Source of the DNA: Ancylobacter sonchi
GTDB lineage: Bacteria; Pseudomonadota; Alphaproteobacteria; Rhizobiales; Xanthobacteraceae
Direction of reading: 5' to 3'
DNA: 64,000 bases
Assembly (NCBI RefSeq): GCF_018390695.1
Contig: NZ_JAHBGF010000013.1
Location: forward strand, 1 to 64,000
The notes below the pieces were generated by a model, which saw nothing but the letters and a program-made list of their open reading frames with translations, searched no databases and was not told the origin of the DNA. Of this stretch, positions 55,258 to 64,000 are shown in pieces. Made by a program: the position numbers and the translations under genes. Position 1 is the first letter of the stretch, and every line of letters starts with the position of its first letter.

Positions 55258-56922
55258 TCAACAAACATATCCGCGCGGCACGTGCGTTTCAGCCTCGTTC
55301 GAATCCCGCACGCCCCGCCATTTCAGTCCCAAACTGGGCACGCCTAGAGTCGCCGATTTCCCTCCTGAGACGGCAGCCAGCGTTCGGAGCAGGTCTCCTT
55401 TCGATCCGATAATGCGGACTTCCCTCGCTCCGACTTCCACGCGCTGAGCCAAGGCGCGCAAATGATCGCGCCGGTAGCCGCCGCCTTCGATGCGCATGCG
55501 CTTGCGAGCGATGTCGGCGAAACGCGCCACCATGGCCGGCGTGACGGCGTCGTCGCCTGAAGTCGCGAGAGAGGTTTGCGCGCGAGCAACATCGGCATGG
55601 GCTTGGTCCCGGATACCCTTCAGTCCGTCGATCCGCTCTTTGAGCGCCGGATCGGTAATGTCGGCGACGCCTGATTCGATGGCGTCATAGAGCCGGCGCA
55701 GCCGCTGATCCGCCTCTGTCCCGCGCTTGTTGAGTTCAGCAATGTGCCCGCGGCGGCGCTCAAGGCGCTCCTGGCGGTGGGTGAGCATTGAAGCGAGGAT
55801 TTCCTGCAGCCGCTCGGGCTGGAGAAGACGCTGCTCGATATGGCTCGCCACAAGGGTGTCGAGCGTCTCCATCGGGATGGCCCGCCCGGCGCAGCCGGTC
55901 TCGCCCTGCCGAGCCTTGATCGAGCAGGCATAGTACCGATACCGCCCGCTCTTGCCGGTGCGGATGGTCATGGCCCCGCCGCACTGGGCGCAATAGCAGA
56001 TACCAGTGAGCAGCGTCGGGCCACTCACGACGCGCGGCGGGACGATCTTGGGATTGCGCGCCTGAAGCTGCTCCTGCACGGCGTTGAAGACCTTGGCGTC
56101 GATCAGCGGCGGCACGGCGACCACCACTACCTCGCTGTCGGGCTTCTTCTGCTTGCTCTTGGAGCGGCTGTTGAACTGGTGCTCGCCGACGTAGGTGCGG
56201 CGAGTCAGCACCCGGTGAAGCTGACCGATGCCCCAGCGCCCGCCCTCGCGGGTGTAGATCCGGTTGCGGTTCAGATGGCTGACGAGGGCCTTTACGCCCA
56301 TCGGACCGGAGCGGCCATCGCCATGGAGAGCGAGATCGAAGATGAGCCGCACCGTGTCGGCGTGAAGCGGATCGATCTCCAGCTTCTTCTTCACCTTGGC
56401 ACCGCGCTGCTCGGCCTCGACCACGCGATAGCCGATCGGCGGGCGGGCGCCGTTCCAGAAGCCCTGCCGGGCATTCTCCTTCTGCGCCCGCAGGACGTGC
56501 TTGGCGTTCTCCTTGGACTGGTACTCGTCGAACAGCGCCATGATCTGCCGCATCATGACGTGCATAGGGTCGTCGCCCATTTCCTGGGTGATCGACATCA
56601 GCCGCACGCCGTTGCGGGCGAGCTTGCGGACATAGAATTCCAGCTCGAAGTGATCGCGGAAGAAGCGCGAGAAGCTGTGCACCACGACGACATCGAACGG
56701 CGCCGGCTTCATTGTCCCCGCCTCGATCATCCGCTGAAATTCGGGCCGGCGGTCGTTGGTCGCTGAGGCCCCCGGCTCCACATATGTCTCGACCAGCTGA
56801 TAGCCGCGCGCCTGGCAATAGGCCTCGCCTTGCCGGCGCTGGTCGGGGATCGAGACATCATGCTCGGCCTGCCGGGCTGTGGAGACGCGCAGGTACAAGG
56901 CGGCACGCAACGGAGCGGTCAT
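55258..56922 (-). CDS. large serine recombinase
   Basis: 554 residues. Resolvase domain with catalytic Ser in LYLRVSTARQ (about residue 14) and VVHSFSRFFRD; recombinase domain (about 165-270); zinc ribbon with CYCAQCGG and a later Cys pair; then a coiled-coil and C-terminal extension. Large serine recombinases integrate and excise phage-like or genomic-island DNA at att sites. The last residues (GVRDSN onward) are encoded by a stretch that resembles a tRNA 3' end, hinting at an att junction inside the gene tail. It is the probable integrase of the defence-gene island to its right. Confidence 0.9.
   Translation of the reverse strand: MTAPLRAALYLRVSTARQAEHDVSIPDQRRQGEAYCQARGYQLVETYVEPGASATNDRRPEFQRMIEAGTMKPAPFDVVVVHSFSRFFRDHFELEFYVRKLARNGVRLMSITQEMGDDPMHVMMRQIMALFDEYQSKENAKHVLRAQKENARQGFWNGARPPIGYRVVEAEQRGAKVKKKLEIDPLHADTVRLIFDLALHGDGRSGPMGVKALVSHLNRNRIYTREGGRWGIGQLHRVLTRRTYVGEHQFNSRSKSKQKKPDSEVVVVAVPPLIDAKVFNAVQEQLQARNPKIVPPRVVSGPTLLTGICYCAQCGGAMTIRTGKSGRYRYYACSIKARQGETGCAGRAIPMETLDTLVASHIEQRLLQPERLQEILASMLTHRQERLERRRGHIAELNKRGTEADQRLRRLYDAIESGVADITDPALKERIDGLKGIRDQAHADVARAQTSLATSGDDAVTPAMVARFADIARKRMRIEGGGYRRDHLRALAQRVEVGAREVRIIGSKGDLLRTLAAVSGGKSATLGVPSLGLKWRGVRDSNEAETHVPRGYVC
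55297..55320 (+). other. tRNA-3'-end-like sequence, candidate att core
   Basis: GTTCGAATCCCGCACGCC followed by CCGCCA resembles a tRNA T-loop and acceptor end. The T-stem 5' arm does not pair properly here and no full tRNA cloverleaf precedes it, so it is not a tRNA gene. It may be a fragment left by integration. Confidence 0.35.
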
Positions 56923-57630: not shown

Positions 57631-59856
57631 TTAGACGGCGACCGGGATATCAATCACCGGTCGCAGCGTTTCCAGCTGCAGAGCATATCTTCTCACAATA
57701 CGTTCATACAGGTCTCTGATTTTCTTGGCTTGAACACTGACAACAAGCGCATATGGCAGTTCAATGTCAGGTGTAAAATTCCGCCCGCCCATGCGGGCAT
57801 TGTAGTGGATGTCCAGCACAGGATTCTGCAGCGTCTGGCCAAGGAATGAAACAGATGTGTGGAGGCAGTTCTCCCATTTCCACGCATCCCGCCTTAGTTC
57901 GTCCTCCATAAGACCGTTCTGCGTCTTGCCGAAGAAGCTCTTGCTATCGGCGTGGACCTGCTTTGGGTCCTTCCGTTTTTCATCATGCGGCCGGAATGTC
58001 GGTTCAAGCCCGGCGCGTGTGTAATTTCCGGGATGGTGGGGATCGACGCCGGTCGGATAGCAGAGCGTTGCCGTGATCCTAACCTTCCCCGGAATTGAAC
58101 CGGATGGGACAGGTATCGGTGCCCGAATATAGCGGGTAGGCGCGATACTGCCTTGGTAGATGACCCGGACCGTATCGTCGTCGCACAGCAGGATATCCTG
58201 CACCGATCGCGCGACGCGGCCACGCCCCACTTCCGCGCATGCCAGCTCTGACGTTTCCGTGCTGTGCACCAGCAAGGCGCGCACAGCGAGCATGCTGATG
58301 CCCGGTCCGAGATGGGCGCGAATTCCAGCGGCGAGTCGAAGCGACGAAGGTGATGCAAAGGACGTTCCCTCCGTCGCTTCGAGTTCCACGGCGTTATTGT
58401 CGCCGACCACAATGAAGGGGCGCTGGAGACACCCGCCGAACTCAACGAAATCGGGTTTCACCAAGCCCGGGCTTCGGCCCGGGCCGATCGAGCTGTAGCC
58501 GCATCGCTTCCACACCGCATCGGGTGCATCGCAGGCTCCGACCGCGATGGCGTTCACGCAATCTGCCGGGACCTGAATTCTGTTCGACCCGTCTTCAGCC
58601 GACCCGTCCCCGTTATTGCCGACCGCGACCGTGGCAAGAACCGACCCGCGCGAAAGCCGATCGTCGATGACGGCCGTCCAGGCATGGACCTCATCGTCCT
58701 CAATCGGCAGCTCAGGCCCAAGGCTGAAATTGGCCAAGTCATATTCGCCGTCGACAAGGGCCTTATCGATACGACCTAGGACATCATAGAGTTCATAACG
58801 GTTCTCGGTCAGCGTCCCGACGTCGAGCACGCGGTAGTGATCAACGGTGGCATAGGGCCTTGGGATCGGCTTCGTGGGATCGATGTGGCCGAACAAAAAC
58901 GCCGAGGTCACGCCGAGTCCGTGCTTCTGAAAAAATCCGATCGGCTTGCCAATGCCTGGCGGATCGATTGCATTCACCCACCTGCGGATCGGGTGCTTCT
59001 CCGGAATGCCGCCATCAAAGATTGCAGCTCGGATCGTCGTATCAAGCGCCACCTCCTTCGGCAGTTGCACCCCATCAATCGGGATGCGGGACGAGCGGAA
59101 TGCCGGGCGGAGCATGCGTAGCGCCGGCATTTGCCGGAGTGCCCGTAAAGGTGTGAACATAGCGATACGCTCAGCAAGCGCGGCTGGCGCCTCCAGTTCG
59201 ACGAAGCAGAGCCCCCCTGCAAAGAAGCGCCGGGTCAGCGGCTGGTCGATGTCGATCTGCTTCAGATAGTCCTTGAATTGCGCAAGGACGCGCTTGAGCC
59301 CCAACGGTCCATCGGCGTGAAGCACCGCTTCAAGGATGGCAATGCCCGCTTCTGGAAGAGTGCCCTTTAGTTTTTCACGCGTCCGCACCATGCCCACCTG
59401 TTCGATGGTCGCAAGTTCGTCCGCAGCGGGTGCCCCCTCGTTCCATTGTGGCATCGATGACTGCCAAGCCCGGAATGCGGCGCGGGTCCCCATAACGAAT
59501 AGTTCGGTGGTGATTGTTTCTTCAGGCTCGCGGCCTCGCGAGCGCTTCTCGGGCGTGATGCGCCGCGGTCGGCTGCCGACCGTATCGAGCCCCAACCGAT
59601 CGAGAAGCTTATCGGGAAAGTAGGATTTCGCGATGTATTCTGGATTCAACGTGATCGTCGCGACAGCGCGATCATCTGGGCATGCTTCCGCCGGCAACGC
59701 GTCGATGCCGCGCACTGTCCTTGAGAGCATCGGGGTGAGCCGCTGCCGGGCAGCGGCGAAGGTGTACGGATGGTCCTTCGGGCCGCCACCCCGAACACCG
59801 ACGACGTCTTCAATGAGCCGTTCGCCTTTGCCGAGAAGAAAGTTCTGCCTTTTCAT
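57631..59856 (-). CDS. S8 subtilisin-like protease, IetS-like
   Basis: 741 residues. A ~270-residue N-terminal region without recognised domain precedes a subtilase domain with the full triad: Asp281 (AAIFDGG), His312 (KHGLGVTSA) and Ser499 (EGTSFASP), plus oxyanion Asn414 (AVGNNGDG). No signal peptide, so it is cytoplasmic. Its start lies 8 bp after the AAA+ ATPase stop. An ATPase-subtilase gene pair is the known IetAS antiphage and plasmid-exclusion module; the protease is presumably held inactive or activated by the ATPase. The trigger is unknown. Confidence 0.85.
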   Translation of the reverse strand: MKRQNFLLGKGERLIEDVVGVRGGGPKDHPYTFAAARQRLTPMLSRTVRGIDALPAEACPDDRAVATITLNPEYIAKSYFPDKLLDRLGLDTVGSRPRRITPEKRSRGREPEETITTELFVMGTRAAFRAWQSSMPQWNEGAPAADELATIEQVGMVRTREKLKGTLPEAGIAILEAVLHADGPLGLKRVLAQFKDYLKQIDIDQPLTRRFFAGGLCFVELEAPAALAERIAMFTPLRALRQMPALRMLRPAFRSSRIPIDGVQLPKEVALDTTIRAAIFDGGIPEKHPIRRWVNAIDPPGIGKPIGFFQKHGLGVTSAFLFGHIDPTKPIPRPYATVDHYRVLDVGTLTENRYELYDVLGRIDKALVDGEYDLANFSLGPELPIEDDEVHAWTAVIDDRLSRGSVLATVAVGNNGDGSAEDGSNRIQVPADCVNAIAVGACDAPDAVWKRCGYSSIGPGRSPGLVKPDFVEFGGCLQRPFIVVGDNNAVELEATEGTSFASPSSLRLAAGIRAHLGPGISMLAVRALLVHSTETSELACAEVGRGRVARSVQDILLCDDDTVRVIYQGSIAPTRYIRAPIPVPSGSIPGKVRITATLCYPTGVDPHHPGNYTRAGLEPTFRPHDEKRKDPKQVHADSKSFFGKTQNGLMEDELRRDAWKWENCLHTSVSFLGQTLQNPVLDIHYNARMGGRNFTPDIELPYALVVSVQAKKIRDLYERIVRRYALQLETLRPVIDIPVAV

Positions 59857-61167: not shown

Positions 61168-62079
61168 TCACCTCCAGAGCCAATCCCAGGCGCGCCACCA
61201 CCACGGTTTCATGATCGCGGGACCAACGACCTTGCTTGCCTTCGGGCGGGGGTGGAACGGCTGGGTGCGAATGTCAAAAAGCGGATCACCGGCCTCATCC
61301 AGCGGATGGTGTGTGCAGCCGCAGCCTTTGAGCATTACCATGCGCTTGTTCGGCGTGATCGAGCCCTTGTTGCCGTCATAGTCGAGGAACACAAATACGG
61401 GCGGACCTTTGAACCAGGGGGTCAGGATCTGCGTCACGATCGAGACGGCAGTTGAAGCGAGCGCGCCGTTCGACCAGACCACCTGAGGCCGTGAGCCGGC
61501 TGCGCCGTACCGCTGTGCCTCTTGCGCCAACCGTTCATCGGTGATCAGACCGCAGCAGCGCAGGCAGGGCTCGCCCGGCATCGAGAGGATGACTTGGCCG
61601 GTCACGAGGTAGCCGGCGGCGCCGATAGTATGCACGTCCATCCCAATGTCGACGTAGGGGATGAGATGCTTGCGGGCGAAGCGCTCAAGCTCGTCTCGAT
61701 CCTTAAAGCTATCGACCGCCCCGACGATCACATCGCACTGCTTGAAGTCATCGACGGCGTCCTGCCATTTGCCCGGAACGAGGACAATGCGCGCGTCCGG
61801 CTGAAGCCCGCGGATCAGGCGCGCCGCGATGTCGACTTTCGGTCGCGCGGCTAGCACGTCGTCGAGGGTCCCGCCGATCAGGCGGTTTGTGTTGGTATCT
61901 TCAATGAAGTCCGGATCCGCGATGACATAGCCGCCGATCCCCATATGCGCGAATTGCTGCACCATGTGCGAGCCACCACCACCAGCACCGACGATACCCA
62001 CCGTCGCGCCGCGCAGGATGTTCTCGCTGTTTGCGCCAAGGAAACTCTGCCGCTCAAGCCGGGTCATGCTGCGCTCCAC
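61168..62079 (-). CDS. ThiF/E1-like adenylyltransferase, BilD-like
   Basis: 303 residues. Rossmann nucleotide site GIVGAGGGGSHMV (about 28-40), ADPDFIEDTNTNR with the E1-type Asp and Arg, and Cys-rich segments PCLRCC and KGCGCTHH. E1-like enzymes adenylate the C-terminal Gly of a ubiquitin-like protein and pass it on as a thioester. Last gene of the Ubl-E2-JAMM-E1 operon; the start overlaps the JAMM gene's 3' end by 16 bp. Confidence 0.88.
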   Translation of the reverse strand: MERSMTRLERQSFLGANSENILRGATVGIVGAGGGGSHMVQQFAHMGIGGYVIADPDFIEDTNTNRLIGGTLDDVLAARPKVDIAARLIRGLQPDARIVLVPGKWQDAVDDFKQCDVIVGAVDSFKDRDELERFARKHLIPYVDIGMDVHTIGAAGYLVTGQVILSMPGEPCLRCCGLITDERLAQEAQRYGAAGSRPQVVWSNGALASTAVSIVTQILTPWFKGPPVFVFLDYDGNKGSITPNKRMVMLKGCGCTHHPLDEAGDPLFDIRTQPFHPRPKASKVVGPAIMKPWWWRAWDWLWR

Positions 62080-62567
62080 ATGCTGGTCGGTGCGCCGATC
62101 GCATTGAATGTCGCGATGAAGGGACGCGGTCTGTCCCTGCCAAGCCAGACCTGTCCGAACGCGGCGGTATCGCTAAGAACAATGGCGCCATGCACCGCGA
62201 ACGGCGCCACAGATACGAAATTGGGGATGAACTTCGCATTCTCGCGGTTGTCGACAGAGCTGAAACTGGGAATGCCGCGACCACCGTGTGTGTGGACGTG
62301 GAACATGGCGGCGCGGCTGTTCATCGCCCATTGGCGGGCGCGGCGTATTGCCGACGCATCAATCATCGCGCCGACGTGCGGATCGTCGAGGTAATCCCCG
62401 TCGTCGACCGGGCGATAGTCGCGCGCCAGGATCAGCAACTCGTCGTGGGCGGCGGCCAAACCCGCCGCGACAAAGCCGATGCGCTCGTGCGCGATCGCAT
62501 GCCGGCGTCGAAGGTCGCTGCGTATCGCGTCAAGGAGCCGCTGGGTGATCTTGAACCGGATTCTCAT
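62064..62567 (-). CDS. JAB/JAMM-type isopeptidase, BilC-like
   Basis: 167 residues from ATG at 62567, overlapping the upstream stop (ATGA). JAMM metalloprotease features: Glu28 (AHERIGF), His-rich FHVHTHGGRG (His90/92/94) and S-x2-D at 103-106. The spacing between the second His and the Asp is one residue longer than the usual H-x-H-x7-S-x2-D. Members trim the C-terminus of ubiquitin-like precursors and cut conjugates. The Ubl gene of the same operon ends two residues after a GG, matching a precursor that needs trimming. Confidence 0.85.
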   Translation of the reverse strand: MRIRFKITQRLLDAIRSDLRRRHAIAHERIGFVAAGLAAAHDELLILARDYRPVDDGDYLDDPHVGAMIDASAIRRARQWAMNSRAAMFHVHTHGGRGIPSFSSVDNRENAKFIPNFVSVAPFAVHGAIVLSDTAAFGQVWLGRDRPRPFIATFNAIGAPTSMWSAA

Positions 62568-62896
62568 GCCACGGCCCTCAGGTGGGCGGAGAGCATCTGT
62601 GTCCACTTCAATGTAGCGGGCACATCATTCCAGGATGGCGCCCACCATGGGCGCTCAATCACACGATGCTGGTTCCAATTGGCGCCCCGCCCGGCGATCT
62701 GCTGGGCGAAGAAGAGGCGGGTGACATAACCGGAGTGGAAAAACGGAACGAGGAGAAGGTCCATGCGCTGCGGCTCGCCGCCCGCCAGGAAGGCAAAGGC
62801 GGGCAACAAGGCGACATGCTGGCCGCCCTCCTTGAGGAGGACGGCGCTGCCATGCATCGCCTGCAAGCCGGCGAATTCCTGCGACGGGTCGCTCAC
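62564..62896 (-). CDS. E2-position protein (BilB-like place), no cysteine
   Basis: 110 residues, overlapping both neighbours by 4 bp. It lies where the E2 conjugating enzyme is expected. Features that fit a small E2-like fold: alternating strands LLLVPFFHSGYVTRLFF, a Trp/Pro-rich loop (ERPWWAPSW) and a C-terminal helix. However, the translation has no Cys at all, whereas E2 catalysis needs one. Either the protein is a non-catalytic E2 variant or another kind of adaptor. Not recognised with certainty beyond position and shape. Confidence 0.6.
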   Translation of the reverse strand: MSDPSQEFAGLQAMHGSAVLLKEGGQHVALLPAFAFLAGGEPQRMDLLLVPFFHSGYVTRLFFAQQIAGRGANWNQHRVIERPWWAPSWNDVPATLKWTQMLSAHLRAVA

Positions 62897-63603
62897 GACG
62901 AACCCCCGCAGGGTACCTGCTGGAAGAACTTCATCCCCTCCTTGATGCGGAGCTTGCCGTCCGGCCCCAGGGGAGTCAGCTGGCCCTCGTCATTGAGGTA
63001 CTCCAGAATGTAGCCGGCGTGGACGCCGAACAGGCTAACCAGCTGCTCGGTCGAGTACTTGCCGCGAGGGATCTCGCGCGGATCGTTCTCGAAGTAGACG
63101 GTGATCAGACGCTTCTCGGTGTGCAGATGCTCCGTGCCGTCCGGCGTGAGGTTGATCACCCCATCGCGCGGCAGCTCGATCTCATCGCCGTCGCGCTCAA
63201 GGACCACGACCTCGTCCCGACCCACATGCCCGGATTCGCGCAGCTCCTGCACCAGCGCCTTGCCGACGCCCCATTCGAATCCGTAGCCGTTGAGCGTAAA
63301 GCGGAAGATGCGATCGCTCTTGAATGCGCGGAAGGCCTCCGTGCCCGCGAGCGCCAGGTCGACGGTCTCGTCGAGACCGATGGAACGCGACCCACGGCGG
63401 GTGAAAAGGATCAACACATGGTCGCCAATCGGATCGAAGCCGGCCTTCTCGAGGATGCGCCCGCCAGTCGGCTCAGGCTTGGCAAACTTCACAGCCACAC
63501 CGTTCACGGTCGTGGCGAACGAGCCGTCAGCATCAGGGTGACGGGCAGCCGGTCCAATGAGGCTGCTGGGACCGGATTCCTCCGGGAGGGCGATATGGTT
63601 CAT
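62893..63603 (-). CDS. multi-domain ubiquitin-like protein, BilA-like
   Basis: 236 residues. After a 28-residue leader, three beta-grasp-like units can be laid out at about 28-95, 96-162 and 163-236 (each beginning with a strand such as FATTVNGVAV, RFTLNGYGF and LITVYFENDP). The C-terminus reads QVPCGGSS: a GG followed by two residues. This is the pattern of a ubiquitin-like precursor needing removal of a short tail, and resembles multiubiquitin and ISG15-like proteins of bacterial Bil systems. First gene of the operon, divergent from an XRE regulator. Confidence 0.8.
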   Translation of the reverse strand: MNHIALPEESGPSSLIGPAARHPDADGSFATTVNGVAVKFAKPEPTGGRILEKAGFDPIGDHVLILFTRRGSRSIGLDETVDLALAGTEAFRAFKSDRIFRFTLNGYGFEWGVGKALVQELRESGHVGRDEVVVLERDGDEIELPRDGVINLTPDGTEHLHTEKRLITVYFENDPREIPRGKYSTEQLVSLFGVHAGYILEYLNDEGQLTPLGPDGKLRIKEGMKFFQQVPCGGSS

Positions 63604-63728: not shown

Positions 63729-63761
63729 CACATTTTGAATCAAGGACTTCAGGAGGACTTT

Positions 63762-64000
63762 ATGCCGAGCAGCGGCGCAGGGCCGGAGAGCAGGCTCACG
63801 CTGGGGAGGTATCTCGCTTCAATACGCACCGACCGCGGTCTCTCACAGCGTGACGTTGAAAAAGCCACAGATAAGGTGGTTTCCAACGCCTACCTCAGCC
63901 AAATCGAGAACGACCAGATCAAGAAACCCAGCCCGAACATACTGCACGCGCTCGCGGAACTCTACGCGGTAAGCTACGAGAATCTGATGGAGCGCGCGGG
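63762..64000 (+). CDS. XRE-family transcriptional regulator (runs off the window)
   Basis: ATG at 63762 with AGGAGG 6 nt upstream. The visible 79 residues contain a helix-turn-helix of the XRE/Cro type (LGRYLASIRTDRGLSQRDVEKAT ... NAYLSQIENDQIKKPSPNILHALAELY). Partial at the right edge, so length and C-terminal domains are unknown. Divergent from the Ubl operon, it probably regulates that operon and itself via the palindromes between them. Confidence 0.87.
   Translation, partial: MPSSGAGPESRLTLGRYLASIRTDRGLSQRDVEKATDKVVSNAYLSQIENDQIKKPSPNILHALAELYAVSYENLMERA

Follow-up and report, generated by a model that had tools for sequence, protein, structure and literature searches.

We describe a gene cassette of Ancylobacter sonchi in which an operon for a three-unit ubiquitin-like protein (Ubl) and its putative conjugation enzymes is followed by the genes of an IetA-like AAA+ ATPase and an IetS-like subtilase (IetAS). 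It lies near the end of the 64,000 nucleotides (nt) analysed here (contig NZ_JAHBGF010000013.1, positions 1 to 64,000; hereafter the window), where an earlier note, made from the sequence alone, had read four genes as a Bil-type operon. Its tagging half falls into a known class, in a part of it that is uncharacterised, and is nothing out of the ordinary there. What is new is the cassette with IetAS, whose order is kept across several genera and which has been re-made with other Ubl operons. No report of a link between IetAS and a Ubl operon was found in the literature searched, which did not cover the primary Bub and Bil papers, and the novelty is in this sense unproven. We tentatively propose, at chances that we put a little under even, that this is a stress-inducible cassette joining a Ubl conjugation system of the 6e/Bub class to the IetAS ATPase-protease pair.

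The genes for the Ubl, the protein in the E2 position, the JAMM protease and the E1 enzyme follow each other in that order on the minus strand, and adjoining genes overlap by 4 nt (Table 1). The JAMM gene probably starts at the ATG at 62567, a longer open reading frame from the GTG at 62606 being also present, and E1 starts at the GTG at 62079 or, more likely, at the ATG at 62067. The gene calls thus agree with the gene order and the Ubl coordinates (62893-63603) given earlier. The extent proposed for the operon, 61168-63603, does hold the four genes, but the unit is larger and extends through the genes of the AAA+ protein and the subtilase as far as 57631. The spacing is 175 nt between E1 and IetA and 8 nt between IetA and IetS. 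A scan for promoters and terminators gave numbers near chance (3 against 2.0 expected and 6 against 5.4 expected).

The ATPase matches the PADLOC model of IetA (E 3.5e-77), and the protease matches that of IetS (8e-37) as well as PF00082 (53.8 bits), with a catalytic triad that is invariant in 12 of 12 sequences. Like the IetAS anti-phage system, the pair consists of an AAA+ ATPase followed by an S8 subtilase. It differs in being attached to a Ubl operon and in scoring below the NCBIfam cut-offs, which are those for the experimentally named pair (230 bits against 510 for IetA and 100 bits against 900 for IetS). The same genome encodes a second IetA-like AAA ATPase (G000:C13:13571-14344, E 2.4e-60).

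A search with E1 gave eight near relatives (L022-L029). In 7 of them the HTH and M78 genes, Ubl, the E2-like protein, JAMM, E1, IetA and IetS stand in the same order, with a divergence among the relatives of 12-42% for Ubl and 15-31% for IetS. The flanks are mostly different: L024 and L028 alone have both adjoining sides in common, and other pairs share shorter, patchy pieces. The distances between proteins of the two halves co-vary for E1 and IetA (Mantel r 0.80, reached in 11 of 5000 permutations), for E1 and IetS (r 0.75, 31 of 5000) and for Ubl and IetS (r 0.62, 61 of 5000).

Since these relatives had been found through E1, we also made a search with IetS only. It returned 28 plasmid records, and all five with at least 60% identity adjoin a Ubl operon, in two layouts. 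Two are colinear like the window (layout A). The three others, from Rhizobium leguminosarum Ta6, Rhizobium sp. 007 and Agrobacterium pusense, carry a different Ubl operon on the opposite strand (layout B), with one Ubl unit fused to Prok-E2_E and a JAB-ThiF protein. Among the 23 records below 60% identity, none of the 7 examined (L042, L044, L053-L057) is linked to a Ubl operon. A divergent arrangement (layout C) was found in Bradyrhizobium quebecense (L081; PADLOC IetA 6e-100, IetS 1.7e-40), and a fourth in locus L132, where IetAS is colinear with an operon of Prok-E2_E type (PADLOC 3e-132 and 3e-232). The IetS tree groups layouts A and B (93/89). The IetA tree separates them, with solo rows in between, and contains four changes between linked and solo labels; branches with strong support make three of these unavoidable. 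The branch of L132 is very long. These changes suggest about 3-4 separate origins of the pairing, involving Ubl operons of different types.

The question is then whether the two halves work together or are merely neighbours. They may be two separate defence systems, a Ubl operon of the Bub/6e class next to an independent IetAS, which stay together through the clustering of defence islands and joint horizontal transfer and are not mechanically coupled, and we regard this as quite possible, if also short of an even chance. Several observations weigh for it and against a coupled system. Each module occurs alone. In an unbiased survey of the order and class samples, IetAS was near only 1 of 44 Multi_ubiq loci outside our own genome (L132), the other 43 Ubl operons being without it, although some of the stretches stop early at contig ends (e.g. 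L130 at 4.8 kb and L142 at 4.9 kb). Conversely, none of 26 IetAS loci outside the linked group has a Ubl or ThiF gene in the DNA examined, a count that rests on the window and Rhizobium Ta6 queries and includes four loci under 6 kb (L058, L059, L062, L072); the first two, extended to 19 kb (as L157 and L158), still showed no ThiF gene. In one near relative (L027) the Ubl operon is the same but IetAS is missing, and five more distant four-gene sisters (L030-L033 and L035) likewise have none in the stretch examined, which is short on that side in L035. A relative of the B. quebecense pair in R. johnstonii pRL8 (L083) is a solo IetAS. The modules are on opposite strands in layouts B and C, the gap between E1 and IetA is 129-179 nt among the relatives, such that a separate promoter is possible, and the distances of the E2-like protein and IetS do not co-vary (Mantel r 0.30, 458 of 5000). 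What speaks against two unrelated neighbours is the colinear array kept in most near relatives amid mostly different flanks, and the repeated origin of the pairing with different Ubl operon types. In addition, a clear IetA was found in 2 of 48 genomes other than our own (FtsH-like frames of about 650 aa set aside), from which the chance expectation of a pairing in the 44-locus survey is about 0.01, a value that ignores the clustering of defence islands. On this genomic basis, we give a coupled system that tags, unfolds and cleaves a slight edge over two neighbours.

Scans with the IetS alignment, own genome included, gave matches in 4 of 385 genomes of the class and 3 of 397 of the order, with IetAS and a Ubl operon adjacent only in our own genome; these scans missed the diverged IetS of genome G625, which the 44-locus survey found. 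Five plasmid matches to E1 (H30, H31, H35-H37) were left out of the locus comparison.

Table 1. Genes of the cassette and its surroundings, and units of the Ubl (window positions unless stated)
Feature	Position	Strand	Basis
Ubl (236 aa), multi-ubiquitin protein of three units with the end P-C-G-G-S-S	62893..63603	-	PF14452, PDB and Foldseek matches
Beta-grasp unit 1 (residues 28-97)	63313..63522	-	AlphaFold pLDDT 60-92; VIA match to 8u38_A
Beta-grasp unit 2 (residues 98-161)	63121..63312	-	homology only
Beta-grasp unit 3 (residues 162-236) with tail P-x-G-x-S-S	62896..63120	-	AlphaFold pLDDT 84-89; VIA matches
E2-position protein, 110 aa, without cysteine, predicted UEV/RWD/E2-like fold	62564..62896	-	invariant Ser88 and His105
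JAMM/JAB metalloprotease, 167 aa from ATG	62064..62567	-	catalytic residues, JAB homology
E1/ThiF-family adenylating enzyme, single domain, 303 aa, C172xxC175...C255xH257	61168..62079	-	PF00899
IetA-like AAA+ ATPase, 375 aa	59865..60992	-	PADLOC IetA
IetS-like S8 subtilase, 741 aa, Asp281-His312-Ser499	57631..59856	-	PF00082, PADLOC IetS
Helix-turn-helix (HTH) regulator, divergent, extending to about 64160 of the contig	63735..64000	+	Pfam HTH_31
M78 (ImmA/IrrE) peptidase, after the HTH gene, beyond the window	contig 64147-65058		Pfam Peptidase_M78

The Ubl has three beta-grasp units, as had been claimed. It matches Pfam Multi_ubiq (PF14452) with 67.6 bits (cut-off 24.5) and, in the PDB, 9cd2 (E 1.1e-12 by sequence, Foldseek E 6.4e-10) and 8u38 (E 1e-11 by sequence), the latter deposited as 'Methylobacterium brachiatum Ubl-BilA'. 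A profile of 14 relatives matches 9d59, 9cd2, 9d5b and 8u38 (E 8e-33 to 4e-27), and units 1 and 2 align jointly to these four solved multi-ubiquitin proteins; its match to fragment 155-229 of Citrobacter BubA is weak (E 0.012). Structure prediction, the check suggested for counting the domains, succeeded for two of the three. In the AlphaFold model, built from a shallow alignment of seven rows and scored by predicted local distance difference test (pLDDT) per block of ten residues, units 1 and 3 are well modelled: unit 1 superposes on 8u38_A (VIA Z 11.3, 72 residues, root-mean-square deviation 1.4) and unit 3 on beta-grasp chains (Z 7.1-7.8). The middle (96-165) reaches a pLDDT of only 30-32, and because of this poor model the assignment of unit 2 rests on homology. 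The hhalign probability is 92% between units 1 and 2, 66% between units 2 and 3, and 0.1% between units 1 and 3, with six controls at 0.9% or less.

These units are of an already known kind. The length, which the earlier note had called unusual, is not so: proteins of one to three multi-beta-grasp repeats were described in 2006 by Iyer et al. (PMC1779556), solved structures exist, and Multi_ubiq is found in 33 of 397 genomes of the order of the host, in 12 of which three matches fall in one open frame. Nor is the protein particularly close to ISG15. The top ranks of a Foldseek search with the Ubl model are the same solved proteins as in the profile search, and the first ISG15 chain comes at rank 13 (E 5.7e-3), after eight multi-ubiquitin chains, so that we rejected ISG15 as the nearest kin.

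The alignments of 14 rows used for this and the following proteins comprise the window, L022-L033 and L035; L034, which has a JAMM-E1 fusion, L036 and L037 are outside these alignments (A3-A6). The last six residues of the Ubl are P-x-G-x-S-S in 14 of 14, with Gly233, Ser235 and Ser236 invariant. At position 234, 8 rows have G, 4 have Q, 1 has A and 1 has H. The end CGGSS read earlier is thus correct, but the Gly-Gly that trimming by the JAMM protease was expected to expose is kept in only 8 of the 14, and we rejected a conserved GG. If JAMM trims the tail, the conserved exposed end would be Gly233.

The JAMM gene had also been correctly recognised, and it has the catalytic residues: E27, H91, H93, S102 and D105, as numbered in alignment A5, do not vary among the 14 sequences. 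The protein is homologous to the JAB part of JAB-E1 fusion proteins (hhalign E 8.6e-15). It gave nothing relevant in the PDB by sequence (best E 1.8) and no match there by profile, and a profile scan of the class sample (385 genomes) found it in our own genome and in one other. Neither it nor the E2-position protein matches any family of Pfam, NCBIfam or PADLOC at E up to 1. The E1 has one match to Pfam ThiF (PF00899; 96.2 bits), at residues 13-240 of 303. Its best PDB match is Citrobacter BubCD (phmmer E 4e-16, profile 3e-19), and it aligns to six JAB-E1, i.e. Bub-type E1, proteins with hhalign E 5.4e-36. C172, C175, C255 and H257, which probably form a zinc site, are invariant, as is Thr180; Cys176 is kept only in the nine window-type rows. 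Among viral contigs, a scan with the alignment of E1 returned no relative.

The E2-position protein contains no cysteine, and its 14-member family has none at a shared place. Ser88, His105, Tyr57 and Arg60 are invariant in 14 of 14. It is predicted to have a UEV/RWD/E2-like fold: the model, which falls short of high confidence (pLDDT 60), consists of a helix, four strands, a loop and a helix, and 29 of the 50 VIA rows listed are titled UEV, E2/UBC, RWD, Atg10 or BubB (12 of them TSG101), at Z 3.5-5.9 for the E2-type rows. Some results argue against this assignment. The top VIA row is an unrelated capping-complex chain (Z 6.1), and no Z of the model reaches 8. None of the 14 family members matches any Pfam model, including Prok-E2_E, at E 10 or less, and the similarity of the family to seven Prok-E2_E proteins is weak (hhalign probability 2.4%). 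These seven share an invariant QRWSRH motif, which is missing here. Foldseek gave no match below 0.001 (BubB at rank 2, E 0.81), and searches of the PDB with the protein and its profile gave nothing relevant, the best matches being unrelated chains (E 1.2 and 0.45).

It is possible, though we would not call it probable, that this protein has no catalytic activity and serves as a UEV/RWD-like adaptor, E1 loading the Ubl directly on targets or on itself. The invariance of Ser88 and His105 speaks against this, as does the oxyester route by which Bub E2s reportedly work. The lack of a conserved cysteine and the preponderance of UEV and RWD among the E2-type VIA matches speak for it, as does the judgement of Iyer et al. 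(2006) that such stand-alone E2/RWD-like domains without cysteine are inactive (PMC1779556).

By homology of the Ubl, JAMM and E1, the operon is closest to the multi-beta-grasp '6e'/Bub class, here compared through operons of Synechocystis, Citrobacter, Nostoc, Methylocystis and Acinetobacter. Type 6e, as described by Iyer et al. (2006), has an E2/RWD-like protein without cysteine sandwiched between a multi-beta-grasp gene and a JAB+E1 gene, with JAB fused to E1 in most operons (PMC1779556). The window shares with this class a Ubl of one to three repeats, a Cys-less protein between Ubl and E1 whose E2/RWD-like fold is predicted, the presence of JAB and of an E1 homologous to BubCD, a sporadic and mobile distribution, and HTH and M78 neighbours. 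It differs in several respects. JAMM and E1 are separate, overlapping genes in the window, L022-L033 and L035; the E2-like protein is outside Prok-E2_E (PF14462), which was found in 4 proteins of Bub/6e type, and lacks QRWSRH; there is no DUF6527 gene, and IetAS is attached.

The earlier assignment to Bil stands only in part: the locus is indeed an operon with the genes of Ubl conjugation and deconjugation, a three-unit Ubl and a JAMM protein bearing its catalytic residues, but it is not a Bil operon as these are defined. The order of the four genes is that of BilABCD, a JAMM gene is present and the Ubl is related to the deposited BilA 8u38. According to a review, BilA has two ubiquitin-like domains, BilB a catalytic Cys138 in a CEHH motif, and BilD an inactive and an active adenylation domain plus a Cys domain (PMC11354881). 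The window has three Ubl units, and we rejected membership because its E2-position protein has no cysteine and its E1, most similar in the PDB to BubCD, is a single ThiF domain of 303 aa, such that both the BilB-type cysteine and the BilD-type E1 architecture are absent. A true BilABCD thioester pathway is thus very improbable. A sulfur-carrier or cofactor biosynthesis cluster of ThiS/MoaD-ThiF/MoeB type, which the ThiF-family E1 and the ThiF/MoeB proteins among its matches could suggest, is hardly credible given the three-unit Ubl, the JAMM gene, the defence-type neighbours (AbiEii, ImmA, IetAS) and the lack of biosynthetic genes in the annotated relatives examined.

The divergent HTH gene (Pfam HTH_31, 43.4 bits) and the M78 gene (Peptidase_M78, 28.7 bits) lie upstream of the Ubl operon in all eight near relatives, and an M78-like gene (E 1e-6 or less) is present in 25 of the 44 Multi_ubiq survey loci. 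According to one study, CapP is a protease that cuts the repressor CapH once it has bound single-stranded DNA (ssDNA), and CapW or CapH and CapP accompany 219 of 544 Bub operons (PMC13373217). The window pair fits the CapH+CapP pattern, as a divergent HTH gene and an M78-type peptidase gene adjoining an immune-type operon. Cleavage triggered by ssDNA is suggested for this pair by analogy.

If the two halves are coupled, as we tentatively propose, the cassette might work as follows. Upon DNA damage or infection the M78 peptidase would cut the HTH repressor, as in CapH+CapP, and free expression. JAMM would trim x-S-S after the invariant Gly233, and could later take the tag off. E1 would adenylate Gly233 and pass the three-unit Ubl on to target proteins, with the Cys-less E2-like protein serving either as an adaptor or as the transfer enzyme, in which case Ser88 is the foremost candidate for the nucleophile. 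IetA would then recognise and unfold the targets bearing Ubl, and IetS would cleave them. The sequences establish the gene content and order, the three units, the catalytic residues of JAMM and IetS, the absence of cysteine from the E2-like protein and the recurrence of the array, whereas the inducing signal, conjugation as such and its chemistry, and the passing of targets to IetAS are steps that we infer. The likeness to the eukaryotic ubiquitin-proteasome and ISG15 systems is an analogy in working (a multi-domain Ubl, JAMM, an AAA+ unfoldase and a protease) and there is no homology as a system: the protease of the window is a subtilase and not a proteasome, and the ISG15 match is weak. We consider it rather unlikely that the cassette is a bacterial counterpart of the ubiquitin-proteasome system, in which the three-unit conjugates of a cysteine-free cascade would be destroyed by IetAS and the coupling would have been assembled 3-4 times from different Ubl operons and IetAS lineages.

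Other genes were found around these loci. A large serine recombinase gene (Resolvase, Recombinase and Zn_ribbon_recom domains; 55258-56922 of the window, minus strand) lies about 700 nt past IetS and suggests the border of a mobile element there; no tRNA was found at 40000-64000. Directly after the M78 peptidase, at about 65098-66435 of the contig (L003:1598-2935), is an HD/HD_assoc phosphohydrolase gene. In Bosea (L032) and R. leguminosarum (L033), a PD-(D/E)XK nuclease and a UvrD helicase follow the four-gene operon instead of IetAS, in differing orientations, and are a candidate for another partner module of Ubl operons. RES-family NAD+ phosphorylase/Xre toxin-antitoxin pairs stand beside the multi-ubiquitin operons L031, L032, L036 and L080. 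Two solo IetAS, on plasmids of Agrobacterium tumefaciens (L044) and Komagataeibacter xylinus (L053), are beside a caspase-family gene.

According to the study cited above, Bub operons are not known to protect against phage (PMC13373217). A cassette of tagging genes with an ATPase-protease pair names a candidate effector for bacterial Ubl tags. With it, the idea that proteins are tagged and then degraded becomes directly testable, and it would also suggest how IetAS picks its substrates. The E2-like family, having neither a cysteine nor the Prok-E2_E motif, offers another case in which Ubl transfer without cysteine could be studied.

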